Shown here in pieces: positions 101 through 15,307 of a stretch of 43,737 nt of DNA. Source of the stretch: Chloroflexota bacterium (GTDB taxonomy: Bacteria > Chloroflexota > Anaerolineae > Aggregatilineales > Phototrophicaceae); NCBI GenBank assembly GCA_026706445.1, contig JAPOYT010000260.1, positions 1-43,737 of the forward strand, in the 5' to 3' direction. Each line of letters starts with the position of its first letter. Positions within the stretch are counted from its first letter, which is position 1. Below the pieces are notes generated by a model. The model was not told the origin of the DNA and ran no database searches. It saw only the letters and a program-made list of their open reading frames with translations. The position numbers and the translations under genes were made by a program.

Positions 101-177
101 TTATGGGAATGCGTCTGCCAACTTGGGTTCAGGTTGCGCAGGTGTTGCAATGTTCGTATTCCATAAGGAGATCTACT

Positions 178-2076
178 GTGAAAAGATTCATCATTCTCAC
201 AACCATTGTACTATTTGCGCTGAGCCTCGTCCCGGGGGCGATCGCGCAAGACGATGGCTACACCATCGCCTTCGTTCCGGGTGTGAATCCGGATCCCTTC
301 TATATCACCATGTCGGGTGGCGTCAATCAAGCGGCTGCGGACCTCGGTCTGACAGTCATCCAGCAAGACCCCGAGCGATTCGATGTCACTGTTTCGGCGC
401 CCATCATTGAGGCGCTGATCGCGCGCGGAGATATCGACGCGCTTGTCACGGCGCCGAACGATAAAGAGCAATCGATACCGGTGCTGCAGGCGGCGCACGA
501 CGCCGGCATCGTCGTGCTGACGGTTGACACCTTCATCGGCGATGGCAACTACGCCGATGGTGAAGTCACCTTCCCGATTTCCTACATCGGCTCTGACAAC
601 ACGCAGGGCGGCTACATCGCTTGTTCGTCGCTGGCCGACAAGCTGGGCGCTGGCGCAAAGATCTATGTCACCAACACGCGCCCGGGCATCAGCACGACCG
701 ACCAGCGTGAAGAAGGCTGCCTGGCGGCGGCTGAGGCTACCGGCTTGGTTGTGGCTCGCGTCGATTACAACGAGAACAGCGCGGATATGGCGCAGCAGCA
801 AACAGCGGCTGTTTTGCAAGCCAATCCCGATATTGTCGGCATGTTCGCCACCAATACCTTTGGCGCGCTGGGCGCTGGCACGGCGATTCAAAACGCCGGT
901 TTGCAAGGCGCGGTGGAAGTGGCGCTCTTTGACGCCAGCGAAGAAAACATCGGCTTCCTAAACGATGGAATTGTCTCGCTGGTCATCGCGCAGAAACCGG
1001 CCGATATGGGTTATCTTGGGGTTGCGCTAGCCACCGCTTATCTGGATGGCGTCGGCAGCATCCCGGCTCGCATCGGCACCGGCTACGCGGTCATCACAGC
1101 CGAAAACGTGGACGATCCGGATGTCGCGCGCTTCATCTACACCAGCAATACCAGCGATCCGGCGCCGGCGCTTGACGAGAGTTACAACCTGGCTTTCGTT
1201 CCTGGCGTGAATCCCGATCCCTTCTATATCACGATGTCGCGCGGCGTTTATGGCGCGGCCGGGCGTTTGGGCATCAATGTCATCCAGCAGGATCCGGAGC
1301 GCTTTGACGTCACGGTATCGGCGCCGATCATCGAAGCCTTGATCGCGCGCGGCGACATCAACTCGCTGGTGACGGCGCCAAACGACAAGGAACAGTCGAT
1401 CCCGGTATTGCAAGACGCGCATGAGGCGGGCATTCCCGTTTTGACGGTCGATACCTTCATCGGCGACGGCAACTACGCCGATGGCGAGGTCACCTTCCCC
1501 TTGAGCTATATTGGTTCCGATAACGTCAACGGCGGCTACATCGCCTGCTCGTCTTTGGCCGATAAGCTGGGCGAAGGCGCCAAGATCTACGTCACCAACA
1601 CGCGTCCGGGCATCAGCACGACCGATCAGCGCGAAGAAGGCTGCCTGGCGGCGGCTGAGGCGGGCGGCTTGGTAGTGGCCCGCGTCGATTACAACGAGAA
1701 CAGCGCTGATATGGCGCAGCAGCAAACGGCCGCTGTTTTGCAGGCGAATCCTGATATCGTCGGCATGTTCGCCACCAATACCTTCGGCGCATTGGGCGCT
1801 GGCGCGGCGATCCAGAATGCTGGCTTGCAGGGCGCGGTCGAGGTTGCGCTCTTTGACGCCAGCGAAGAGAACATCGGCTACTTGCGCGACGGCATCGTCT
1901 CGCTCGTTATCGCGCAGAAGCCGGCTGACATGGGTTACCTGGGCGTGATCGCGCAAATCGCGAATTTGCGCGGCGTGACTTCCATGCCGGCGCGCGTCGG
2001 GACGGGTTACGCGGTCATCACCATCGACAATGTCGATGATCCGGATGTCGCGCGTTTCATCTATACGGCGGGTTAG
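178..2076 (+). CDS. Ribose-type ABC sugar-binding protein, tandem duplicated on one polypeptide
   Basis: Periplasmic binding protein of the RbsB-like family (Peripla_BP_4 type), which captures a sugar or polyol outside the membrane. I chose GTG at 178 because AAGGAG lies 8 bp upstream and a signal peptide (KRFIILTTIVLFALS...AIAQ) starts there. The 632-residue product is about twice the family length of roughly 300. Residues after the leader form two complete copies offset by exactly 308 codons (924 bp), joined by a short Ser/Asp/Pro/Ala linker (around SNTSDPAPALDES). I count about 33 differences in about 297 aligned residues, near 89 percent identity, concentrated at each copy's ends. Both keep the VPGVNPDPFYITMS start. 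A terminator follows directly, so it is probably its own transcript. The likely partners are the permease at 8164 and the ATPase at 9497. The ligand is unknown. Confidence 0.9.
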   Translation: MKRFIILTTIVLFALSLVPGAIAQDDGYTIAFVPGVNPDPFYITMSGGVNQAAADLGLTVIQQDPERFDVTVSAPIIEALIARGDIDALVTAPNDKEQSIPVLQAAHDAGIVVLTVDTFIGDGNYADGEVTFPISYIGSDNTQGGYIACSSLADKLGAGAKIYVTNTRPGISTTDQREEGCLAAAEATGLVVARVDYNENSADMAQQQTAAVLQANPDIVGMFATNTFGALGAGTAIQNAGLQGAVEVALFDASEENIGFLNDGIVSLVIAQKPADMGYLGVALATAYLDGVGSIPARIGTGYAVITAENVDDPDVARFIYTSNTSDPAPALDESYNLAFVPGVNPDPFYITMSRGVYGAAGRLGINVIQQDPERFDVTVSAPIIEALIARGDINSLVTAPNDKEQSIPVLQDAHEAGIPVLTVDTFIGDGNYADGEVTFPLSYIGSDNVNGGYIACSSLADKLGEGAKIYVTNTRPGISTTDQREEGCLAAAEAGGLVVARVDYNENSADMAQQQTAAVLQANPDIVGMFATNTFGALGAGAAIQNAGLQGAVEVALFDASEENIGYLRDGIVSLVIAQKPADMGYLGVIAQIANLRGVTSMPARVGTGYAVITIDNVDDPDVARFIYTAG

Positions 2077-2102: not shown

Positions 2103-2134
2103 CCCCTCTCTCATAAAGGGAGAGGGGCTTTTTT
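2103..2134 (+). terminator. Intrinsic terminator after the tandem binding-protein gene
   Basis: CCCCTCTC at 2103-2110 pairs with GAGAGGGG at 2120-2127 across a 9-base loop, followed by C and six T. The hairpin resembles a short copy of C-rich family A (shared CATAAAGGG core), so a repeat seems to serve as terminator. Confidence 0.75.
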
Positions 2135-2190
2135 CGCCACAGAAGCAGTAGCAGGTCAATCATTCATAATAATGTTCTGTAGATGTGAAT

Positions 2191-2217
2191 GCGGGCGGCC
2201 CAGTCGGTCGCCCCTAC
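2191..2217. repeat. Family B hairpin, short form
   Basis: Imperfect GGGCGGCCC...GTCGCCCCTAC hairpin, one of about twenty intergenic copies of this family here. It ends 33 bp before the start of the next gene, so it would be in that gene's leader. Confidence 0.7.
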
Positions 2218-2250
2218 ATTCTTGCGCTCCCGCGCTTTACTCTTGACCGG

Positions 2251-3453
2251 ATGAGCAACTTCCACCCGCCCCTCAGCAAAAAGCACAAGCAAATAGTCGC
2301 CGCCCTGTGCGCCACCTATGGCCTGCTGTATTTGGGCCGGGTGAACATCAGCGTGGTCTTGCCTATATTAGCGGTCGAACTCGATGTCGGCCGGGCGGAA
2401 ATCGGTATCCTGGGCACGGTGTTTTTCTGGGTGTACGCCATCGGCAACTTCGTCAATGGCGAGATTGGCAGCCATGTCAGCCCATTTCGCGTGGTCGCTT
2501 TGGGTCTGTTGGTCACCGCGATCGTGAATCTCGTTTTCGGTTTCCAGACATCGCTGCTGGTTATGCTGGTCCTTTGGGGCCTCAACGGTTTTGCGCAGTC
2601 TGGGGGCTGGCCGCCGATTGTTCGCATTTTGGCCGAGCGCCTCCATCCGAGTCAAATAAAGCAGGTATCGACCGTAATCCCAATCAGTTACGTCATCGGC
2701 ACGGTGGTCACCTGGACCTTGATCGGGGCAGTGGCGGCCGGCGGAAACTGGCGTCTGGCATTTTGGCTTCCGGGGGTGATTCTGCTGGTAACGGCGGCGC
2801 TCTGGCGGGCGGCAGGCATTGACGCGCCGACGGCAGATTCAAAGGGTGTGCGCCTTTCGACGATCATCGCCGAATCGCGCGGCCTCGCCTTTGCGCTGGT
2901 GGTATCGGCTTTGGCTGGATTCGTCCGCAATGGCTCGATTATCTGGCTGCCGTCGTATATTCTCGACAGCCAACTGATCGCCGACAATCTGGTTGGCGCC
3001 GTCGCCGCTCTCACGCAAGTGGTCGCGATCCCGGGCCTTATGATTGCTCGTCACCGCGTCGTCCGCACCAATCAGGTGCTGGTGACTGGCGTGTACATGT
3101 TTAGCGCCGGCGGGCTCGCCTTTCTGCTGCTTTCGGCGACCAGCGGCATATTGTCGATTGTGGTCCTCTGCCTGGCTATGATGATTCTGGGTGGCGCATT
3201 TGGCTTGGTAACGTCTTCCATGCCGGTGATGCTTTCGCCGCCGGGGCGCGCATCGTCGATCGCTGGCACGCAGAATATGATGGCGACTTTCGCCGGCGGC
3301 CTGGCTGGCTTCGGCATCGGCGCTATTGTGGAGCGCGGTGGCTGGAGCGCCGTCTTTGGCCTTTGGGGCCTCATGCTGCTGCTGGCTGCCGCTATCACCT
3401 GGCGCCACCGTCACGAGGAAGACCGGCGGACCGGCGCGGTTGAGGCCGGATGA
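2251..3453 (+). CDS. MFS transporter, organophosphate:phosphate antiporter (GlpT-like) family, copy 1
   Basis: A 400-residue protein with the hydrophobic pattern of a 12-helix MFS carrier. Helix 1 has YLGRVN, like GlpT YLVRKN, placing R30 at the phosphate-binding Arg45 of GlpT. The segment LNGFAQSGGWPP resembles the OPA-family motif, and FVRNGSIIWLPSY aligns with GlpT LLRYGILDWSPTY, placing R226 at the second phosphate-binding Arg269. It may therefore exchange a phosphorylated sugar or another anionic organic compound for phosphate (inference). I chose ATG 2251 because upstream in-frame sequence is a family B repeat; no good ribosome binding site is visible. A close paralogue follows after 4 bases. 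Confidence 0.85.
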   Translation: MSNFHPPLSKKHKQIVAALCATYGLLYLGRVNISVVLPILAVELDVGRAEIGILGTVFFWVYAIGNFVNGEIGSHVSPFRVVALGLLVTAIVNLVFGFQTSLLVMLVLWGLNGFAQSGGWPPIVRILAERLHPSQIKQVSTVIPISYVIGTVVTWTLIGAVAAGGNWRLAFWLPGVILLVTAALWRAAGIDAPTADSKGVRLSTIIAESRGLAFALVVSALAGFVRNGSIIWLPSYILDSQLIADNLVGAVAALTQVVAIPGLMIARHRVVRTNQVLVTGVYMFSAGGLAFLLLSATSGILSIVVLCLAMMILGGAFGLVTSSMPVMLSPPGRASSIAGTQNMMATFAGGLAGFGIGAIVERGGWSAVFGLWGLMLLLAAAITWRHRHEEDRRTGAVEAG

Positions 3454-3457
3454 TCCC

Positions 3458-4642
3458 GTGCAAAAATCGCTGACCAGACAGCAAAATATGATGGTGGGAA
3501 CCCTGATGTTCACCTACGCCCTCTATTATCTGGGGCGGGTGAACGTCAGCATGGTATTGCCCGCGCTCGCGCAGGACCTGGGCGTCAGCCGCGCTGAGGT
3601 CGGCGCATTGGGCACGATCTTCTTCTGGGTCTACGGCATTTTTCACTTCGTCAGCGGCGAGATCGGCAGTCACGTCAGTCCCTTTCGTTTGGTCAGCATC
3701 GGCTTGCTCGCCAGCGCCATCGTGAATCTGGTATTCGCCTTTCAGTCGTCCCTGATCATCATGCTGATCTTGTGGGGGCTCAACGGCGTCGCGCAGTCGG
3801 GCGGCTGGTCGCCAATGTTTCGCATCCTGGCGGAGCGCCTCGATCGCGCGCATATCAAACGCGTATCGACCGTCATGCCTTTCAGTTATGTATTGGGAAC
3901 GGCGCTCACCTGGGCGCTCATCGGCGCAGTGGCCAGCGGCGATAATTGGCGTATCGCATTCTGGCTTCCCGGTCTGGCGCTGCTGCTGGTCTTGGCTTTC
4001 TGGCGTAAAGCGGGCATAGACGCGCCGAAGACGCAATCGAGCGGCATTCGACTTTCGACCATCATCGCGGAAGCGCGCGGGATCGCCTTTGTGATGCTGG
4101 CGGCGGCGCTGGGCGGCTTCGTTTTCAATGGCACGATCATCTGGCTGCCCTCGTATATCCTCGACAGCGGGCTGATCGCCGACAGCATGGTTGGCGCGGT
4201 CGCCGCGTTGACGCAGGCAGTTGCGATTCTGGGGCTAATCTTGGCGCGAAGTCTGGTCGCGCGCAGCAACCTGGCGCTGCTAACCGCCGCGCAACTCTTC
4301 GCAGCGGCCGGCTGCGCCTTTCTGCTGCTGGCTTTGACGCAGGGAATCTTCGCGATTCCTGTGGTCGCATTCGCGCTCTTGGCCTTGAACGGCGCATTCG
4401 GCTTAACGGTGAGCGCCATGCCCTTGCTGTTGGCGCCGGCGGGGCGCGCTTCCTCCACGACCGGGGCGGTCAATATGATGTCGACCTTTTTTGGCGGCAT
4501 GGCCGGCTTCAGCATTGGCGGACTGGTTGAAGCAAGCGGCTGGAGCGCGGTATTCGGATTGTGGGGCGCCTTTCTTCTGCTGGCCTGCTTGCTGATCTGG
4601 CGCAATCGACACCGGGAAGACCGACGGGATGGCAAGGCATGA
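3458..4642 (+). CDS. MFS transporter, GlpT-like family, copy 2 (second substrate Arg replaced)
   Basis: A 394-residue paralogue of the preceding carrier, near-identical over long stretches (FFWVYGI, GEIGSHVSPFR, LPSYILDS). GTG 3458 lies 4 bases after the upstream stop, with GAGGCCGGA before it; ATG 3488 is an alternative start. Helix 1 keeps the GlpT-like arginine (R27 in YLGRVN). The residue aligned with R226 of copy 1 is F223 (GFVFNGTIIWLPSY), so one of the two arginines that bind phosphate in GlpT-type carriers is missing. Copy 2 may have changed substrate or charge preference, or may work with copy 1. The short gap suggests one transcript and a local tandem duplication. Confidence 0.85.
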   Translation: MQKSLTRQQNMMVGTLMFTYALYYLGRVNVSMVLPALAQDLGVSRAEVGALGTIFFWVYGIFHFVSGEIGSHVSPFRLVSIGLLASAIVNLVFAFQSSLIIMLILWGLNGVAQSGGWSPMFRILAERLDRAHIKRVSTVMPFSYVLGTALTWALIGAVASGDNWRIAFWLPGLALLLVLAFWRKAGIDAPKTQSSGIRLSTIIAEARGIAFVMLAAALGGFVFNGTIIWLPSYILDSGLIADSMVGAVAALTQAVAILGLILARSLVARSNLALLTAAQLFAAAGCAFLLLALTQGIFAIPVVAFALLALNGAFGLTVSAMPLLLAPAGRASSTTGAVNMMSTFFGGMAGFSIGGLVEASGWSAVFGLWGAFLLLACLLIWRNRHREDRRDGKA

Positions 4643-6310: not shown

Positions 6311-7321
6311 ATGAGCGCGCGCAAGCAGAAACTGATCAACAAGCCTGAGGCCATCGTCGATGAGATGCTCGCGGGATTTTGCGCCGCCTACCACGACATC
6401 GTCCGCCTGGAACGCGAGCGCCTGGTCGTCCGCGCCGAGCCGAAAGCGCCCGGAAAGGTCGGTTTGGTCATGGGCGGCGGCAGCGGTCACGAGCCGGCCA
6501 TGCTCGGCTGGGTGGGCGAGGGATTGCTTGATGTAAATGTCGTGGGCGAGGTATTCAGCGCGCCTGGTCCCGGTCCAATCATTGAGGGGATTCGCGCGGC
6601 CGATCGCGGCGCCGGCGTGCTGCTTTGCGTCTCGCATCATGAAGGCGACCGGCTCAACGCCGAGCTTGCGCTGGAATTCTGCGAAATGGAGGGCATTGAG
6701 AATGTCGACATGGTGATTCTCTATGATGACATCTCCAGCGCGCCAAAGGGCAGCGAGAGCGAACGGCGGGGCACAGCCGGTCTGTTCTTCGTCTGGAAGA
6801 TGCTGGGCGCCTATTGCGAAGGGGCGGTAGACTTGGCGGCCGCCAAAGCGCTGGCTGAAAAGGCGCGGGACAATACGCGCAGCCTGGCGATGTCCCTCAG
6901 TTCCTGCGCCAGTCCGGTCAGCGGCGAGGTCATGTTTGAGATGGCTGAAGGCGAAATGGAGATCGGCATGGGGCTGCACGGCGAGGTCGGCCGGGGACGG
7001 CAGAAGGCGCTTTCCGCCGACGATACAATCGACCTCATGCTGCCGCAAATCCTCGACGACCTGCCCTTCCATGCCGGCGATGAGGCGCTGGTCCTGCTGA
7101 ACAACAGCGGAAGCCTGACCCTGATGGAGCTTTTCATTTTGTATCGGCGCGTCGAAAAGATGCTGCGCGAAGCTGATATCAAAGTGCACAAGTCCTGGAT
7201 CGGCGCTTACGCCACCACCTTGGAGACGGCTGGTTTCGCCATTTCGCTCTGCCGTGTCGATGATCAGTTGAAGGATCTTTGGGATGCGCCCGCGAACGGC
7301 GCCTATATGAAGCAGGTATGA
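6311..7321 (+). CDS. dhaK: Dihydroxyacetone kinase-type subunit DhaK
   Basis: A 336-residue Dak1-domain protein that binds dihydroxyacetone or a related small ketose covalently through histidine for phosphorylation by DhaL. GGGSGHEP is at residues 55-62. H223 in GMGLHGE matches the substrate-binding His218 of E. coli DhaK, and GD at 112-113 matches its catalytic Asp109 region. The residues before it are SHHE instead of the usual KNYT, which may mean a different substrate. A GAGGACGGGA stretch precedes the ATG. It overlaps dhaL by ATGA. No DhaM or PTS gene is in the window, so an ATP-dependent pair is likely. Related kinases elsewhere act on erythruloses, so the substrate is open. Confidence 0.9.
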   Translation: MSARKQKLINKPEAIVDEMLAGFCAAYHDIVRLERERLVVRAEPKAPGKVGLVMGGGSGHEPAMLGWVGEGLLDVNVVGEVFSAPGPGPIIEGIRAADRGAGVLLCVSHHEGDRLNAELALEFCEMEGIENVDMVILYDDISSAPKGSESERRGTAGLFFVWKMLGAYCEGAVDLAAAKALAEKARDNTRSLAMSLSSCASPVSGEVMFEMAEGEMEIGMGLHGEVGRGRQKALSADDTIDLMLPQILDDLPFHAGDEALVLLNNSGSLTLMELFILYRRVEKMLREADIKVHKSWIGAYATTLETAGFAISLCRVDDQLKDLWDAPANGAYMKQV

Positions 7322-7983
7322 CGACGATAGCGCCGGCGCAACTTGCGGACATGATCGGGTCAATTGCTCGACGGATTCTGTCGGAGCGAGACCGGCTGAA
7401 TCGGCTTGACGCGGCGCTGGGCGACGGCGACCACGGCACGAGCGTCAGCGCTGCATTCGCTGCAGCGGCCACCGACATTGCCGAACTCAAGCAGCCAAGC
7501 GCAGGCGATATTTGGCTGGCGACAGCGAAGGCGGTGATGAATCGAATGGGTGGCGCATCGGGCGCGATATTTGGTACTTTCTTTCTCAAAGGCGCGGGGC
7601 ATCTGAGGGGAATAGAGCGCGTGGGCAAGAGCGATATGGAGGCGGTTCTGCAGGCGGGGTTGCAGGGCGTGAAAGCGCGCGGCAAAGCTGAAGTTGGCGA
7701 TAAGACAATGGTGGACGCGCTGGAGCCGGCGGTGACGGCATTTTGCGGGGCGGACGAATTCGCCGGCGCCTGGACCCGCGCCACAGAAGCCGCTCGCGAG
7801 GGCGCCGAATCAACGCGAGAGCTGGTCGCGCGGAGGGGAAGAGCCAAGTACCTAAGCGAGCGCGCCATTGGTCATGTCGATCCGGGCGCGTCAAGCATCG
7901 CCGTGATCTTCGAGGCGGTCGATGATTGGTGGGGGGCAAACCCCACCCCCAGCACCTTGCAATTTGAAGAGGCGGAGCATTAG
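7318..7983 (+). CDS. dhaL: Dihydroxyacetone kinase-type nucleotide-binding subunit DhaL
   Basis: A 221-residue Dak2-domain protein, normal for free-standing DhaL. LDAALGDGDHG supplies D31, D36 and D38, the Mg-nucleotide ligands. GGASGAIFG, GDKTMVDALEP and the lid-like RGRAKYLSERAIGHVDPGA segment are all present. The start is fixed by the ATGA overlap with dhaK, which implies translational coupling. With DhaK it should phosphorylate a short ketose in the cytoplasm, making a phosphate ester for the downstream aldolase. About 100 bp of non-coding sequence follows before the next promoter candidate. Confidence 0.9.
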   Translation: MTTIAPAQLADMIGSIARRILSERDRLNRLDAALGDGDHGTSVSAAFAAAATDIAELKQPSAGDIWLATAKAVMNRMGGASGAIFGTFFLKGAGHLRGIERVGKSDMEAVLQAGLQGVKARGKAEVGDKTMVDALEPAVTAFCGADEFAGAWTRATEAAREGAESTRELVARRGRAKYLSERAIGHVDPGASSIAVIFEAVDDWWGANPTPSTLQFEEAEH

Positions 7984-8163: not shown

Positions 8164-9285
8164 ATGGCGGTAAGCGCAGCCTCGGACAAGTCTAAACGCC
8201 AGCCCTTGGTCAACGCGCGTTTTGTTGAATTCTTAACCAAGAGTTGGTCTTACCTTTTCTTGCTAGGCTTGGTGGTTTTCTTTTCCCTGACCGGCACCGG
8301 CTTCTTTTCGGTGCGCAATTTCTCCTCCATTTTAACGACCAGCACGCTGATCATGCTGATGTCGATTGGGCAGACCTACGTGGTCATCACCGCCGGGATT
8401 GACCTGTCCATCGGCTGGACGGTGGGGCTTTCGTCAGTCACCACCGCGCGCGTTATGCGCGATCTGGCGGCTGGCGGCGCCGATGTCGAATATGCCATGC
8501 TGGCTGGTGTCTTCGCTGGTCTGCTGGTCGCGCTAATTCCGGGTTTGGTCAACGGACTGTTGGTCGCTCGTGTGAAGGTGCCGCCCTTTATCGCCACTTT
8601 GGGCATGTTCGGCATCGTGCGCGGCGCCGCCTTTTTGCTCACGGACGGGCAGCAAGTCGTGCGCGGTTTGTCGGCTGAATTGCGCGAAGCCTTGCGCGGC
8701 ATCGGCAACGGTAGCCTGCTTTACCACATACCCGATCACGGACTGGTTTGGTTCCGGCAGCCGCCTGACCTCGAGCCGACGCAGATTCGGCAAGTTTCAC
8801 AGTTGTTGCCTTATCCGGTGCTGATCACCGCGCTCGTGGTGATCGTCTTCGCCTTCATCCTGGCGCGCACAAAGTTCGGCCGCCACACCTACGTCATCGG
8901 CGGCAGCGAAGAAGCGGCGCGGCGCTCCGGCATTAATGTCGACCGTCACTTGATCATCATCTATGTAATATGTGGATTCACCGCTGGCATCGCCGGTGTG
9001 CTGCATCTCTTCCGCTTCACGGCAGGCGCGCCCCAAGCGGGCGAAGCGGCGCTGTTGTCATCGGTGGCGGCGGTGGTCATCGGCGGCACCAATCTCTTCG
9101 GCGGGGAAGGCGATATCATGGGGGCGGTCGTCGGCTCGCTGATCATCGCCGTCTTGCAGACCGGGCTGGTTATACTCAATATCGATTCGATCTGGCAATT
9201 CATCGTGGTCGGCGTAGTCATCATCATCGCCGTGCTGGTCAATCAGCTGCAATCGGCGTTGGAAAGGCTGCAAAGCAATGTCTAG
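8164..9285 (+). CDS. Ribose-type ABC transporter permease (RbsC-like)
   Basis: A 373-residue membrane protein of the CUT2/BPD_transp_2 family. It has many hydrophobic helices, a TYVVITAGIDLSIGW segment typical of RbsC proteins, KVPPFIATLGMFGIVRG, the cytoplasmic loop TKFGRHTYVIGGSEEAARRSGI and the terminal VVIGGTNLFGGEGDIMGAVVG. A loop of about 45 residues (around YHIPDHGLVWF) between helices is longer than in E. coli RbsC. GAAAGGA lies 8 bp before the ATG; an earlier ATG at 8156 is out of frame. Probably works with the ATPase at 9497 and the tandem binding protein at 178. Its last codons carry the left copy of a 23-bp duplication. Confidence 0.9.
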   Translation: MAVSAASDKSKRQPLVNARFVEFLTKSWSYLFLLGLVVFFSLTGTGFFSVRNFSSILTTSTLIMLMSIGQTYVVITAGIDLSIGWTVGLSSVTTARVMRDLAAGGADVEYAMLAGVFAGLLVALIPGLVNGLLVARVKVPPFIATLGMFGIVRGAAFLLTDGQQVVRGLSAELREALRGIGNGSLLYHIPDHGLVWFRQPPDLEPTQIRQVSQLLPYPVLITALVVIVFAFILARTKFGRHTYVIGGSEEAARRSGINVDRHLIIIYVICGFTAGIAGVLHLFRFTAGAPQAGEAALLSSVAAVVIGGTNLFGGEGDIMGAVVGSLIIAVLQTGLVILNIDSIWQFIVVGVVIIIAVLVNQLQSALERLQSNV

Positions 9286-9502
9286 GTCAAGCCCCTCACT
9301 CCCCAGCCCCCTCGCCCACAGGGGGAGAGGGGGAGCGCTGTCTGCGGAACGACATAATTCCGAGAGATTTAGCTTGCGATGAACAGGCTGCAAAGCTGCG
9401 TCCTAGCCGACAAGACTGACATGGGCAGCCTCCCCTTCCCTCCTTGTGGGGGCAAGGGGTCGGGGGATGGGGGAAGTAGGGAAAGGCTGCAAAGCAATGT
9501 CT
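9261..9502. repeat. Insertion of family A DNA between permease and ATPase genes, flanked by a 23-bp direct repeat
   Basis: A 23-bp sequence beginning GGAAAGGCTG and ending GCAATGTCT occurs exactly at 9261-9283 (last codons of the permease) and at 9480-9502 (covering the ATG of the ATPase). The 196 bp between contain C-rich family A arms at about 9293-9333 and 9428-9478 and a degenerate third copy of the repeat (GGCTGCAAAGC) near 9386. Removing one repeat and the insert rebuilds a junction in which permease TGA and ATPase ATG overlap as ATGTCTGA. Confidence 0.8.
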
Positions 9503-10267
9503 GAGGCAATACTCACCGCCACCGGCGTCAGCAAACACTTCGGCGGCTTGACCGCGGTCGACAATGTCGATTTTGCTGTATATCCAGGCGAGGTCGTCGC
9601 CCTGCTGGGCGATAACGGCGCTGGCAAGTCGACGCTGATCAAGTGCATCTCCGGCGTTTATCGCCCCGAGAGCGGGCGCGTCATATTCAATGGCTCCGAC
9701 ATTACGCATCAGCCGCCGGCCGATATTCGCAGCCGCGGCATCGAAACGATCTATCAGGATCTGGCGCTGGCGGAGAATCTGGATGTCGGCGCCAACGTCT
9801 TCCTGGGCAAGGAAGTGACGCGTCGGCTCTTCGGTTTGCTCCCGGTAACCGATGACAGCTATATGCGCCAGGAAGCGTCCGGCGTATTGGATGAGCTGGA
9901 TATCCATATTCCGTCGTTGACGCAAAAGCTGGTCAATCTCTCCGGCGGGCAGCGGCAGGCGGTGGCGATCGCCCGCGCCATGTATTGGAATGCGCAGTTG
10001 GTCATCATGGACGAGCCGACGGCCGCGCTCGGCGTGCCGGAGCAGCGCAAGGTCCTCGCCCTGATACGGTCGCTGCGCGAAGGCAATATCCCCGTTATCC
10101 TGATCAGCCATACGATGCACGATGTGATGGCGGTGGCTGATCGTATGGTGATCATGCGCCGGGGACGGGTGGTCGCCAATATCGCGCGCGCCGAAGCGAG
10201 CGAAGAGATCATCGTACGGCACATCGTCGGCAGCGCCGAAAACGGCGAAAACGCGGTGATGATTTGA
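9497..10267 (+). CDS. Ribose-type ABC transporter ATP-binding protein, single domain
   Basis: A 256-residue cytoplasmic ATPase for sugar import. Walker A is GDNGAGKST (38-46), the Q-loop is in IETIYQDLALAENL, the signature is LSGGQRQAVAIARA, Walker B is LVIMDEPTAAL and the switch histidine is in LISH. It has one ABC domain, like FrcA, unlike E. coli RbsA with two. I start at ATG 9497 (MSEAILTATGVSK); the in-frame sequence upstream is glycine/arginine-rich translation of the inserted repeat. The start context was retained by the 23-bp duplication. Forms a set with the permease at 8164 and probably the tandem binding protein. Confidence 0.9.
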   Translation: MSEAILTATGVSKHFGGLTAVDNVDFAVYPGEVVALLGDNGAGKSTLIKCISGVYRPESGRVIFNGSDITHQPPADIRSRGIETIYQDLALAENLDVGANVFLGKEVTRRLFGLLPVTDDSYMRQEASGVLDELDIHIPSLTQKLVNLSGGQRQAVAIARAMYWNAQLVIMDEPTAALGVPEQRKVLALIRSLREGNIPVILISHTMHDVMAVADRMVIMRRGRVVANIARAEASEEIIVRHIVGSAENGENAVMI

Positions 10268-10404: not shown

Positions 10405-11373
10405 ATGCCGACGCAACTGACGCCCGGGCGCTACCGCGGCTTGAAATCGACCAGCCTCGCCGAGCGGGATGTCTTCGGCATCGTCGCCTTTGATCAGCGC
10501 GGCAGCTACCGCAAGATGATGCCGGAAGGCGACAGTTATGAAATGCTGGCGCAGGTCAAAGGCGAGATCATCGGCGCGCTGTCAAAAGAGGCCAGCGCCA
10601 TCCTCACCGACCCGGCCTACGGCCTTAATGCGGCTATGGAGATGAGTCCAAAATCGGGCTTATTGCTGGCGCTGGAAAAGAGCGGCTACAGCGGCGATTC
10701 AAGCTACCGCAAAACCGAGCTCATCCCCAGCTGGACGCCGGAGAAGATTCGAAAAGCCGGCGCAAGCGCGGTCAAGTTCATGGTCTATTATCATCCGGCG
10801 AGCGGCGCGCTGGCGGAGGAACTGGAGGGCTTGATCGGCTCTGTGGTGGCGGATTGCCACCAGTGGGATCTGCCCGTTTTCCTCGAGCCCATGTCTTACA
10901 GTCTCGATCCAGCTGTGTCAAAAGACAGCGCCGATTTCGCCGCGGAGCGCCCGGCGGTCGTCATCGAAACCGCCCGCCGTTTGTCGCGCAGCGGCGCCGA
11001 TGTGTTGAAGCTGGAGTTTCCGCTTGACATCAAGTTCAACCCGGAGCGCGCGGAGTGGCACGAAGCATGCGCAGCGCTCAGCGAGGCTTCGGCTGTGCCT
11101 TGGGTGTTATTGAGCGCCGGGGTCGATTTCGACCAATTCAAGCCGCAGGCGCAGGTCGCTTGTGAGCGCGGCGCCAGCGGTTTCCTCGCCGGGCGCGCCA
11201 TCTGGAAAGAAGCGGCGGCCATGTCTCAAGCGGCCCGCGCCGACTTTTTGGAAAATACAGCGCGCGATCGTCTGCGAAAGCTATTGGACATCGCCGCCGC
11301 CTCAGCGCGCCCATGGACGGACTTCTATCGCGCGCCGCAGTCCAGCGAGACTTGGTACGAGTCGTATTCCTGA
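10405..11373 (+). CDS. Class I aldolase of the LacD / YihT family
   Basis: A 322-residue TIM-barrel aldolase of the family containing tagatose-1,6-bisphosphate aldolase (LacD) and sulfofructose-phosphate aldolase (YihT). These cleave ketose 1-phosphates to dihydroxyacetone phosphate plus an aldehyde through a lysine Schiff base. K202 in DVLKLEFP is the expected Schiff-base lysine; K124 in SAVKFMVYYHP and E161 in FLEPMSY match other conserved active-site positions. FDQRGS and ILTDPAYG are typical N-terminal motifs. AGGAGAAAGGA precedes the ATG. With DhaKL upstream it could cleave the phosphorylated ketose the kinase makes. Sequence alone does not tell tagatose bisphosphate from sulfofructose phosphate or a novel ketose. 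Confidence 0.85.
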   Translation: MPTQLTPGRYRGLKSTSLAERDVFGIVAFDQRGSYRKMMPEGDSYEMLAQVKGEIIGALSKEASAILTDPAYGLNAAMEMSPKSGLLLALEKSGYSGDSSYRKTELIPSWTPEKIRKAGASAVKFMVYYHPASGALAEELEGLIGSVVADCHQWDLPVFLEPMSYSLDPAVSKDSADFAAERPAVVIETARRLSRSGADVLKLEFPLDIKFNPERAEWHEACAALSEASAVPWVLLSAGVDFDQFKPQAQVACERGASGFLAGRAIWKEAAAMSQAARADFLENTARDRLRKLLDIAAASARPWTDFYRAPQSSETWYESYS

Positions 11374-11601: not shown

Positions 11602-11643
11602 TAACTGTCGTCGACCGGTCAAATATTTGCGGTGAGGATACAA

Positions 11644-13194
11644 ATGATTAAGAAAGTCCGAGCAAACAGAGCGCCAGCCCCATCGCGCCGCGATGTGCTA
11701 CAGATATTCGCCGCCGGCATGACCAGCGCCGTCGGCGCGATTGCGCTCGATAGCGCGCCGCAACTGAATGCCGCCCGCGCCAGTGATGGAACGCTGCGCA
11801 TCGCCTGGCTGACGCCGGCGCAGTTGGACCCGCGCTCGGTATCCGGAATGAGCGAAATCGCCATTTTGAACGCGTTGTACGACTACCTGTTTGAAACAGA
11901 TGCTTCGTCAAATCTGGTTCCCACGCTGGCCTCGTCCTGGGAGCGAAGCGACGATGGCGCGCAATATACGCTGCAACTGGTGGAGAACGCATTGTTCCAT
12001 GACGGCAGCCTGTTGACGGCGCATGACGTAGCCTGGAGCATTCAGTGGCAGCTTGAGGCTGGCGGCACGATCGCCGATGTGCTGGCGGGGATTGAATCGC
12101 TGGAGGTGGAGGGCAACCATATAGTGACCTTCAAGCTCAAGGCGCCGGATCCCGATTTTCTTTATCGGCTGACGGAGTACAAAATCGTCATGCTGAAGGC
12201 GGGCGCCGAGAATACGGGCGTCGAATTTAATGGGACCGGTCCTTTCATCTTGGACGAAATGATCCCGGGCGACCGCGCGGTGATGCGAGCCAATGAGAAT
12301 TACTGGCGCGGGGCGCCGAACATTGACACGCTCGAGTTTCTCTTTTTCGATGATCAGCAAGCGGCGATTTCGGCTGTGCAGGGTGGGATAGCCGATGGCA
12401 TCCTGCGGCTGGACAACTTCAGTTTCCTTAATTTCAGCGGGGACTTCCGCTTCAATACGATTGATATCCCTACAAACGCGCATCATATGACGCGCATCCG
12501 CGCTGACCGGCCGCCGGGAGATGATATACGCGTGCGGCAGGCATTCAAGCTGGCGACCGACCGGCGCGCGGTCTGGGATCGGGTGCAGTTGGGCTTTGGC
12601 GCGCTCGGCAAAGATTCGCCCATCGGTCCTTCCTTCGCGCAGTATTTCCTGACGGATGCAGAGCCGCCGCCGCGCGATCCAGCCGCCGCGGCCGCCTTGC
12701 TGGCTGAAGCCGGTTATCCCGATGGCTTGGATATGACCCTGCATGTGCCCAACAGCGGCGTGATGCCCGATTTTGCGCAGGCGATGGCGGCGCAGTGGCA
12801 TGACGCCGGCATCCGCGTCGAGATTGAATTGGAAGAAGAAAACGAATACTGGGTGCAAAAGTGGCTGGATGTGGATTTGGGCGTTACCTGGTGGGGCGAC
12901 CGCGTCGCGCCGCAGATTTACCTCGACCTCGCCTATCGATCGGATGCGACCTGGAACGAATCGCATTGGCAGGATGAGCGCCTGGACGAACTGATCGATT
13001 TCGCGCGTTCCGCCCTCGATAATGAAGCGCGGATAGCGGCATACAAAGAGATACAGCGGATGTTTCTTGATGAGGGGCCCATCATTGTGCCTTATTTCTA
13101 CGCCTCATTCATGGTGATGGCGAGCCATGTCTCGGGCGTGGAGCTGCATCCATTCTCGGGCCGCACGCATTTCCACACTGCGCTATTGGGTTGA
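11644..13194 (+). CDS. Family 5 extracellular binding protein of Opp/Dpp-type importer, copy 1
   Basis: A 516-residue SBP_bac_5 protein that captures peptides, opines or oligosaccharides outside the membrane. ATG 11644 has GGTGAGG 6 bp upstream; an in-frame GTG at 11632 overlaps that site and is less likely. The leader has a twin-arginine-like SRRDVLQIFAAG followed by a hydrophobic stretch, suggesting export folded. Mature hallmarks are LRIAWLTPAQLDPRS, YTLQLVENALFHDGSLLTAHDVAWSI, NGTGPFILDE and the lobe-2 segment DDIRVRQAFKLATDR. A strongly similar paralogue starts at 13766 and the permease/ATPase genes follow. The ligand is unknown. Confidence 0.9.
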   Translation: MIKKVRANRAPAPSRRDVLQIFAAGMTSAVGAIALDSAPQLNAARASDGTLRIAWLTPAQLDPRSVSGMSEIAILNALYDYLFETDASSNLVPTLASSWERSDDGAQYTLQLVENALFHDGSLLTAHDVAWSIQWQLEAGGTIADVLAGIESLEVEGNHIVTFKLKAPDPDFLYRLTEYKIVMLKAGAENTGVEFNGTGPFILDEMIPGDRAVMRANENYWRGAPNIDTLEFLFFDDQQAAISAVQGGIADGILRLDNFSFLNFSGDFRFNTIDIPTNAHHMTRIRADRPPGDDIRVRQAFKLATDRRAVWDRVQLGFGALGKDSPIGPSFAQYFLTDAEPPPRDPAAAAALLAEAGYPDGLDMTLHVPNSGVMPDFAQAMAAQWHDAGIRVEIELEEENEYWVQKWLDVDLGVTWWGDRVAPQIYLDLAYRSDATWNESHWQDERLDELIDFARSALDNEARIAAYKEIQRMFLDEGPIIVPYFYASFMVMASHVSGVELHPFSGRTHFHTALLG

Positions 13195-13696: not shown

Positions 13697-13765
13697 TCAC
13701 GATGTGAATTGTCTCCCTGCTTCGGCTTGATTTCAGTCAACGTACACGTGGAGGAGGCTCACATC

Positions 13766-15307
13766 GTGTCAAAGAATCGCAGTATCCCCGCAAATGAATT
13801 ATCCCGCCGCGAATTCCTCAATGTATTCGCCGCTGGCGCAGCCGCCGCGGTTGGCACGGTTTCGCTGGCCGGGTTTAGCGGAATCGCCAGCGCGCAGGAC
13901 GGCGCTCTGCGCATCGCCTGGCTGACGCCGGCGACCCTGGATCCGCGTTCGGCTTCAGGCGACAGCGAAATCGCCATCCTGAACGCGCTGTATGATTATC
14001 TGATTGAAACTGACGCGGCCGCCAATCTTGTGCCGCGCTTGGCGTCTTCCTGGTCGCTTAGCGATGATGGCTTGGTCTACACGCTGCAAATCCGCGATGA
14101 CGCGCATTTCCATGACGGCAGCCCAGTCACGGTGGACGATGTGCTCTGGACGATTCAGTGGCATATCGAATCGGAGAGCACGGTCGCCAGCCTCTTGACA
14201 TCGGTGGATTCGGTCGCTGCCGCTGGTGAAAACGCCATCGCTTTCACGCTTAGCGAGCCCAATCCCGATTTTCTGTACAACCTGACCGATAACAAGTTCG
14301 TGATTCTGCAAGCGGGCGCGGAGGATATCGGCACTGCCTTCAACGGCTCGGGACCGTTTGTGCTGGAAGAAATGCTGCCCGGCGATCGCGCGATCATGCG
14401 CGCCAACGCCGATTACTGGGGCGGCGCGCCGAGCGTCAATCAGCTTGAATTCATCTTCTTTGATGATCAGCAGGCGGGCATCGCCGCGGTGCAAGGCGGC
14501 AGCGTCGATGGCATCCTGCGGCTGGATAATTCCAGTTTCCTTGGATTCGCCGGCGACATGAGCTTCAACACCAGCGATATCCCGACCAGCGGTCACCATC
14601 TGACGAGGTTGCGCTCCGACCGGGCGCCTGGTTCCGATGCGCGCGTAAGGAAAGCATTCAAACTGGCGACCGACCGCGATGCGATTTGGGAGCGCGTGCA
14701 GCTCGGCTTTGGCGCTGTGGGCAAGGACTCGCCGATTGGACCAGCCTTCGGTCAATACTTCCTGGCTGAGGCGGAAGTGCCGGCGCGCGACCCGGCAGCG
14801 GCGGCCGCCCTGTTGGCGGAAGCGGGCTACCCGGATGGCTTGGATATGATCTTGCATACGCCCAACAGCGGTTCCTGGCCTGATCTGGCGCAGGCGATAG
14901 CGGCTCAATGGGAAGAAGCCGGCATCCGCGTTGAGGTTCAGCTTGAGGATGAAAACACCTACTGGGCGGAAGCCTGGATGGAGGTTGACCTGGGCGTGAC
15001 CGGCTGGGGCGCTCGCCCCATTCCGCAGCTCTACCTCGATCTCGCTTATCACTCGGATGCGCCCTGGAACGAGTCGCACTACAGCAACGCGCGCGTCGAT
15101 GAATTGATCGAGATCGCGCGCGCCTCGCTCGATCAAGACGAGCGCACAGCCGCCTATAAGGAGATTCAGCAGATTCTGCTCGATGAAGGTCCGGTGGTCG
15201 TGCCTTATTTCTTCGCCCAATTTATGGTGCTGGCTGGCAACATATCGGGCGTGGAATTGCAGCCATTTGCCGGTCGCACGAATTTCAACAATGCGGTGGT
15301 TGGATAG
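13766..15307 (+). CDS. Family 5 extracellular binding protein of Opp/Dpp-type importer, copy 2
   Basis: A 513-residue paralogue of the product of 11644-13194. I chose GTG 13766 because GGAGGAGG lies 8 bp upstream and the twin-arginine-like leader SRREFLNVFAAGAAAAVG follows. The same landmarks recur: LRIAWLTPATLDPRS, HFHDGSPVTVDDVLWTI, NGSGPFVLEE, ARVRKAFKLATDRDAIW and GAVGKDSPIGPAFGQYFL. Ligand-contact differences cannot be read without a structure, but both copies are intact and conserved, so two ligand specificities for one channel is the likely reason. The permease at 15543 follows after repeat DNA. Confidence 0.9.
   Translation: MSKNRSIPANELSRREFLNVFAAGAAAAVGTVSLAGFSGIASAQDGALRIAWLTPATLDPRSASGDSEIAILNALYDYLIETDAAANLVPRLASSWSLSDDGLVYTLQIRDDAHFHDGSPVTVDDVLWTIQWHIESESTVASLLTSVDSVAAAGENAIAFTLSEPNPDFLYNLTDNKFVILQAGAEDIGTAFNGSGPFVLEEMLPGDRAIMRANADYWGGAPSVNQLEFIFFDDQQAGIAAVQGGSVDGILRLDNSSFLGFAGDMSFNTSDIPTSGHHLTRLRSDRAPGSDARVRKAFKLATDRDAIWERVQLGFGAVGKDSPIGPAFGQYFLAEAEVPARDPAAAAALLAEAGYPDGLDMILHTPNSGSWPDLAQAIAAQWEEAGIRVEVQLEDENTYWAEAWMEVDLGVTGWGARPIPQLYLDLAYHSDAPWNESHYSNARVDELIEIARASLDQDERTAAYKEIQQILLDEGPVVVPYFFAQFMVLAGNISGVELQPFAGRTNFNNAVVG

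Follow-up and report, generated by a model that had tools for sequence, protein, structure and literature searches.

A free two-headed RbsB-type sugar-binding protein in Chloroflexota, with like pockets and head-specific ends

INTRODUCTION

Free receptors of ABC importers are usually taken to be one-headed. Near one end of a contig from a Chloroflexota bacterium (JAPOYT010000260.1, 43 737 nt; this whole stretch is called the window below), a single open reading frame encodes two receptor heads in series. The locus raises the questions of whether this arrangement is genuine, how old it is and what the two heads might do together.

Two known systems offer comparisons. In GlnPQ, the tandem substrate-binding domains form part of the permease chain, have different specificities and move on the linker (PMC8025302); in OpuA, each transporter has two like domains, which interact and cooperate in delivering one and the same substrate (PMC11065425). 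The window protein resembles the former in having two binding domains joined in series in a single chain, and the latter in the two like binding domains per transporter proposed for it. A literature search of partial coverage, on free tandem or multi-headed receptors and on conversion in receptors, returned GlnPQ and OpuA, together with papers whose titles point to other subjects, and no free tandem receptor among the papers listed.

MATERIALS AND METHODS

Protein relatives were drawn from three lists of matches (the best 120 of 778, the best 120 of 3444 and the best 120 of 157). The locus set, in which the window gene is L001, excluded broken or partial loci (L073, L107, L011, L098, L026, L080, L105, L104 and L023); of the loci without genome assignment, only L001 and L003 were kept. 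For the run test and the analysis of four-fold sites, the set comprised the 40 tandem genes whose heads are both complete. A 93% redundancy cut reduced these to 14 non-redundant genes, 13 of which (L053 left out) entered the trees of the middle and of the ends. Head-specific residues were counted in 66 tandem proteins: the window protein, 62 of 63 non-redundant homologs, and L064, L065 and L074; proteins under 600 amino acids had been dropped beforehand, and P0096, whose heads are 71% alike, was left out. Comparisons of each head with orthologs were kept where dS was under 2 (37 of 39 for head 1, 38 of 39 for head 2). On the basis of RbsB structures as we know them, 36 positions of eight motifs were taken to line the pocket.

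RESULTS

Two complete heads on one free chain

The features of the gene and of its surroundings are collected in Table 1. The start codon is GTG, with an in-frame ATG at position 103. The preliminary description, made from the sequence alone, had proposed two complete RbsB-like domains in tandem on one chain, and this holds: PF13407 (Peripla_BP_4) matches the protein in two stretches, both of them full heads (310.5 bits against a Pfam cut-off of 35.1), and both have the type I periplasmic-binding fold. Pfam and fold comparison place the heads among the RbsB-type (CUT2, Peripla_BP_4) sugar-binding proteins, the closest known family, with 5dkv from Agrobacterium vitis as the nearest solved structure (44% identity); the score against NCBIfam NF007936, the ribose-binding protein RbsB equivalog, is 178.3 bits, below the cut-off of 337. 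No two-headed chain was found among the matches listed in the comparisons with solved structures (best 60, 50 and 50). The single signal peptide placed ahead of both heads is likely, and its residues 2–16 form a helix in the AlphaFold2 model. The receptor is also free, as had been stated: the chain ends after head 2 and the permease is a separate gene, which sets it apart from GlnPQ. A search of the same genome with the window gene gave a single other match, weak and partial.

Table 1. Features of the receptor gene and of its downstream neighbours in the window
Feature	Position	Strand	Details
Ribosome-binding-site-like AAGGAG, 7 nt 5' of the GTG start	165..170	+	read from sequence
Two-headed sugar-binding protein gene	178..2076	+	632 aa, one ORF (178-2076)
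Likely signal peptide, residues 1-23	178..246	+	by eye; ..PGAIA before QDD; no lipobox cysteine
Head 1, residues 27-323	256..1146	+	complete RbsB-type domain
Head 1 first helix, residues 40-56	295..345	+	head-specific Q51 and D55
Head 1 late helix and turn, residues 274-293	997..1056	+	head-specific D290
Linker, residues 324-334	1147..1179	+	11 residues
Head 2, residues 335-631	1180..2070	+	complete RbsB-type domain
Head 2 first helix, residues 348-364	1219..1269	+	with R355 and R363
Head 2 late helix and turn, residues 582-601	1921..1980	+	with R598
Intrinsic-terminator-like hairpin, directly 3' of receptor gene	2103..2134	+	10 pairs and T run
DhaK and DhaL dihydroxyacetone kinase subunits	6311..7983	+	between receptor and permease in this lineage
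CUT2-type permease (BPD_transp_2)	8164..9285	+	likely partner
ABC ATPase	9446..10267	+	single nucleotide-binding domain
LacD/DeoC-family aldolase	10405..11373	+	tagatose 1,6-diphosphate aldolase-like; NCBIfam NF009498, 280.4 bits vs cut-off 184

The hairpin that follows the gene folds with -19.4 kcal/mol (z = -3.91); it is among the 6 sites returned by the terminator scan overall, against 11.5 in shuffles. A hairpin similar to its part at 2103-2127 occurs at 9308-9332, between permease and ATPase, and is perhaps a dispersed repeat.

An old duplication with both heads under constraint

The exact 924-bp period without indel noted earlier was reproduced as a register of 308 codons with zero indels, and the earlier estimate of about 89% matching residues is right within the choice of bounds (88.2% over 297 residues). 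The heads are 79% identical in nucleotides over residues 27–325. As had been seen, the differences gather near the ends of the copies, at about residues 27–60 and 280–323, and over residues 60–300 identity rises to 91% in protein and 81% in nucleotides. Between the heads, dN is 0.097 and dS 1.03 (NG86), a second alignment giving 0.089 and 1.02. In comparisons with orthologs, the median omega is 0.053 for head 1 (maximum 0.258) and 0.034 for head 2 (maximum 0.355). The window gene is therefore an old duplication with purifying selection acting on each head, both copies are intact as first described, and decay of one copy is ruled out by the constraint on both.

The two-headed design is widespread. 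A match at E 1e-60 was found in 74 of 154 genomes of the order, and one frame covering at least 600 query residues in 39 of the 154 and in 30 of the 34 genomes of the genus (hand count). The search for further two-domain proteins, which had been suggested beforehand, thus shows a design that is standard in the genus rather than the unfamiliar kind of receptor it had been thought to be. The design persists, with similar linkers, in relatives down to about 65% identity. Over 121 proteins, head-to-head identity ranges from 66% (P0105, 599 aa) and 71% (P0096) up to 97%. Relatives with one head are found in Chloroflexota, Alphaproteobacteria, Verrucomicrobiota and a Thermaceae bin; of 87 pattern stretches in viral contigs, none was a relative. 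In P0182 and P0191, lipoprotein-like tandem relatives, the second head shifts to another frame partway.

These data bear on whether an assembler might have duplicated a single gene, a caution raised in the preliminary description and lent some substance by the position of the gene, which starts only 177 bases from the contig end. Since 61 of 141 four-fold sites differ between the heads, an assembler origin of the copies is excluded, and the 21% nucleotide difference, the same design in nearly all genomes of the genus and 17 full-length homologs whose contigs reach 1 Mb or more (among the best 120 of 778), one of them on a 3.6 Mb contig of Aggregatilineales bacterium SYSU G02658, all speak against it; we regard this explanation as vanishingly improbable.

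Single-head and half-head relatives

Single-headed relatives were considered as possible ancestors of the tandem and rejected. Among those listed with at least 62% identity to a window head, 30 of 34 combine a head-1-type start with a head-2-type end, and L075 and L077, the two examined in trees, both nest inside the tandem clade. Eleven of the 34 share at least 23 of 24 signal-peptide residues with a listed tandem. These forms look like losses of a unit or collapsed assemblies.

The half-heads, a sister family (8 listed: P0164, P0168, P0171, P0172, P0174, P0175, P0178 and P0193), have a complete second head and a first head without about residues 155–251. Judged from the fold, the missing stretch is most of the C-lobe of head 1. 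The model of one such protein has a pLDDT of 84.6 and a pTM of 0.86.

Concerted middle, separate ends

The nearly invariant middle reported at the outset is borne out as far as the closeness of the two heads goes; conservation, however, is not its whole cause, and in most tested genes the middle evolves in concert. Orthologs whose heads are 71–78% identical to the same heads of the window protein have own heads that are 80–93% alike. Over residues 65–278, 12 of the 14 non-redundant genes have an own pair of heads that is closer than the best ortholog, whereas for the ends this is so in 1 of the 14. The same contrast is seen in trees. For the middle, 11 of 13 genes have their own heads as sister branches, 10 of them with starred support, the exceptions being L001 (the window gene) and L051, where the own heads are not paired. 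When only tandems enter a tree built from the ends, the head-2 ends of all genes but one, 12 of 13, fall in one group (80/91; L074 excepted). A wider tree of the ends (53 rows and 78 columns, of modest support) groups ten head-2 ends (100/97), needs 4 and 3 changes for the head-1 and head-2 labels, places the head-2 ends of L064 and L065 with the half-heads and their own head 1, and pairs the two heads of L074.

By the run test, 13 of 40 genes have significant tracts of identical variable third positions before correction, and 5 of 40 once corrected. The cleanest conversion tract is that of L065, which comprises 164 identical variable third positions flanked by ends that differ strongly: four-fold differences are 0.00–0.03 over columns 100–250, and 0.56 and 0.53 at the two ends. 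The tract of L053 sits in a scaffold with N gaps. The run test for a recent conversion tract in the window gene itself found none (P = 0.76).

The pocket motifs thus lie in a middle that evolves in concert in most of the genes tested, while the ends keep old head-specific identities. Because own-pair closeness, trees and conversion tracts all set the middle against the ends, the simplest account for the window family is an old duplication followed by repeated conversion of the middle and not of the ends. Repeated independent duplication, considered as an alternative, would leave the similar linkers and the head-specific ends unexplained.

Like pockets, a probable ketohexose and the neighbouring genes

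The heads of the window protein are identical at all 36 positions that we take to line the pocket. Across the 66 tandems, the heads differ in 0.97% of cells at these positions versus 12.9% at all positions. Both heads therefore likely bind the same sugar. The preliminary description had suggested that the two heads might give two affinities, and a GlnPQ-like receptor whose heads differ in affinity or specificity could draw on the 12% of residues at which they differ and on GlnPQ itself as precedent (PMC8025302). Against this stand the pocket-motif positions, which hardly ever differ within one gene and which, in the window protein, speak against the differing ligands described for GlnPQ, and the concerted middle of most tested genes. 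Unequal affinities of the two heads are unlikely on these grounds, and we give the GlnPQ-like explanation little credence.

Among tandem loci with 9 kb downstream, 28 of 29 have a permease and a single-domain ATPase after the receptor, and 25 of 29 have a LacD-like aldolase. The surroundings of L065 include a SIS-domain gene and NagA, next to a second ABC system. The similarity to 5dkv, whose ligand we take to be D-tagatose, together with the LacD-like aldolase and with the SIS-domain gene and NagA near L065, makes a ketohexose such as tagatose the probable ligand.

In the window, two tandem MFS transporter genes (2185-3453 and 3326-4642; 68% DNA identity over a 300-nt stretch), a CoA-transferase gene and DhaK/DhaL sit between receptor and permease; 8 of the 29 loci have MFS genes after the receptor. 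At L050, an ABC ATPase with a TOBE domain comes after the receptor in place of the usual permease and ATPase. Further downstream in the window, at 11632-13194 and 13709-15307, lie paralogous long binding-protein genes in tandem, with Tat-like starts and no lipobox, presumably family-5 substrate-binding proteins from their appearance.

Complementary charged faces and predicted docking of the heads

The head-specific positions of the ends fall on two helices. Positions 47, 51, 54, 55 and 58 have helical spacing and lie on or just after helix 40–56, and positions 283–293 lie on and after helix 274–289. Across the 66 tandems, head 1 has Q51 in 66, D55 in 66 and D290 in 62, and head 2 has R363 in 63 and R598 in 63 (three lack each). 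A patch of 12 positions carries a net charge of -2 or -3 in head 1 of 58 tandems and of +2 to +4 in head 2 of 60. Whenever R is present at 363, position 290 is D or E; the other three tandems have N or K at 290, and all three may go back to a common ancestor. The faces carry complementary charges, acidic in head 1 (D55 and D290) and basic in head 2 (R363 and R598).

The AlphaFold2 model of the full-length window protein has a pLDDT of 92.0 and a pTM of 0.90, and from the latter value, read by itself and without a negative control, a defined head–head arrangement is predicted. In this the protein would differ from GlnPQ, whose domains are mobile. In the half-heads, Q51, D55 and R598 of head 2 are kept in 8 of the 8 listed and R363 in none. 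Because these proteins lost most of the C-lobe of head 1 and kept Q51 and D55, the N-lobe of head 1 is suggested to have some use besides sugar binding.

Alternatively, the charged faces could be two distinct surfaces by which heads on a flexible linker dock to the permease dimer or another partner. Docking residues of RbsB, as we assume from general knowledge, lie near the cleft, elsewhere than on the head-specific face, which argues against this. So do the defined orientation predicted by the model and the retention of Q51 and D55 in half-heads that have lost most of one C-lobe. The head-specific positions do map to a pair of helices close to the ends of each head, and the tandem domains of GlnPQ move on their linker and compete for docking (PMC8025302); even so, we consider docking to the permease or another partner a rather unlikely purpose of these faces.

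Tentatively, and with less than even confidence in the reading as a whole, we propose that an ancestral self-matching pair became a built-in pair, with a seam spared by conversion and with head 1 pared down in one lineage. An ancestral single head would have displayed both D55 and R290 on the same face, and two such heads would have paired. Once duplicated, the heads would have become all-acid (head 1: D55, D290) and all-basic (head 2: R363, R598), one symmetric contact being kept and the other reversed, so that the heads would be forced to pair within the chain. Gene conversion would later have kept both pockets alike while sparing the seam, and one lineage would have pared head 1 to its N-lobe, a docking partner no longer binding sugar. 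In a sister clade of single-headed proteins (about 51–57% identical), D55 is present in 13 of 13 and is accompanied by R290 in 8 of 13; since this combination occurs there, D55 with R290 alone is no proof that a single-headed form is a hybrid of a head-1-type start and a head-2-type end.

DISCUSSION

The window gene specifies a single chain, in which a likely signal peptide precedes two complete RbsB-type heads. On balance we think it probable that both heads bind the same sugar and form the predicted fixed pair, which would supply the downstream ABC permease. Duplication of a single head would have founded the tandem. Recombination between the copies would repeatedly reset the pocket-bearing middle, by which both heads would have kept one specificity, and selection would hold the two ends apart because the N-lobe faces there would join acidic head 1 to basic head 2. 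Docking would take place through the N-lobes, D55 and D290 of head 1 meeting R363 and R598 of head 2. Such a bivalent receptor would load both heads with sugar and offer one after the other to a symmetric permease.

A selectively neutral tandem duplication, doubling the dose of receptor and held by recombination with no special function, would fit the nested single-head forms, some of which share tandem signal peptides and point to units lost or collapsed, and would fit the recurrence of multi-headed receptors in other families. It fits poorly with a design and linkers kept to about 65% identity, with head-specific residues that are nearly invariant and with a constraint on head 1 that nearly equals that on head 2, and we hold it to be improbable.

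What is new, as far as sequence comparison tells, is the combination of a concerted middle, head-specific ends and clear conversion tracts in some relatives. Under the bivalent-receptor proposal, a single gene would separate two demands, its pockets being kept alike by recombination and its seams kept different by selection. The half-head relatives permit a direct test of the role of a non-binding head. With two heads as the norm in one genus and two- and three-headed cousins in other families, these receptors offer a natural test of whether bivalency benefits uptake.

The window family is not the only one of its kind. L074, a lipoprotein-like tandem at 49% identity that shares Q51 and D55 versus R363, is treated as a probable separate duplication because its heads pair in both trees. 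Among other RbsB-type proteins listed, 29 of 120 have two full heads and 5 of 120 have three. The Ca. Roseilinea-type and related proteins (P0239-P0299, L016 and L018) likewise have tandem heads on one chain; they differ from the window protein in the lipoprotein-like starts of L016 and L018, which are only about 32–33% identical to it, and in the three heads of some. In L016/P0239 (Ca. Roseilinea), 278 of 282 residues are identical between heads. The multi-headed receptors of other RbsB families apparently represent separate duplications, and this kind of receptor is recurrent, since two- and three-headed forms occur in those families. The three-headed RbsB-type receptors (P0240, P0241, P0242, P0265 and P0266) are 840-942 amino acids long.
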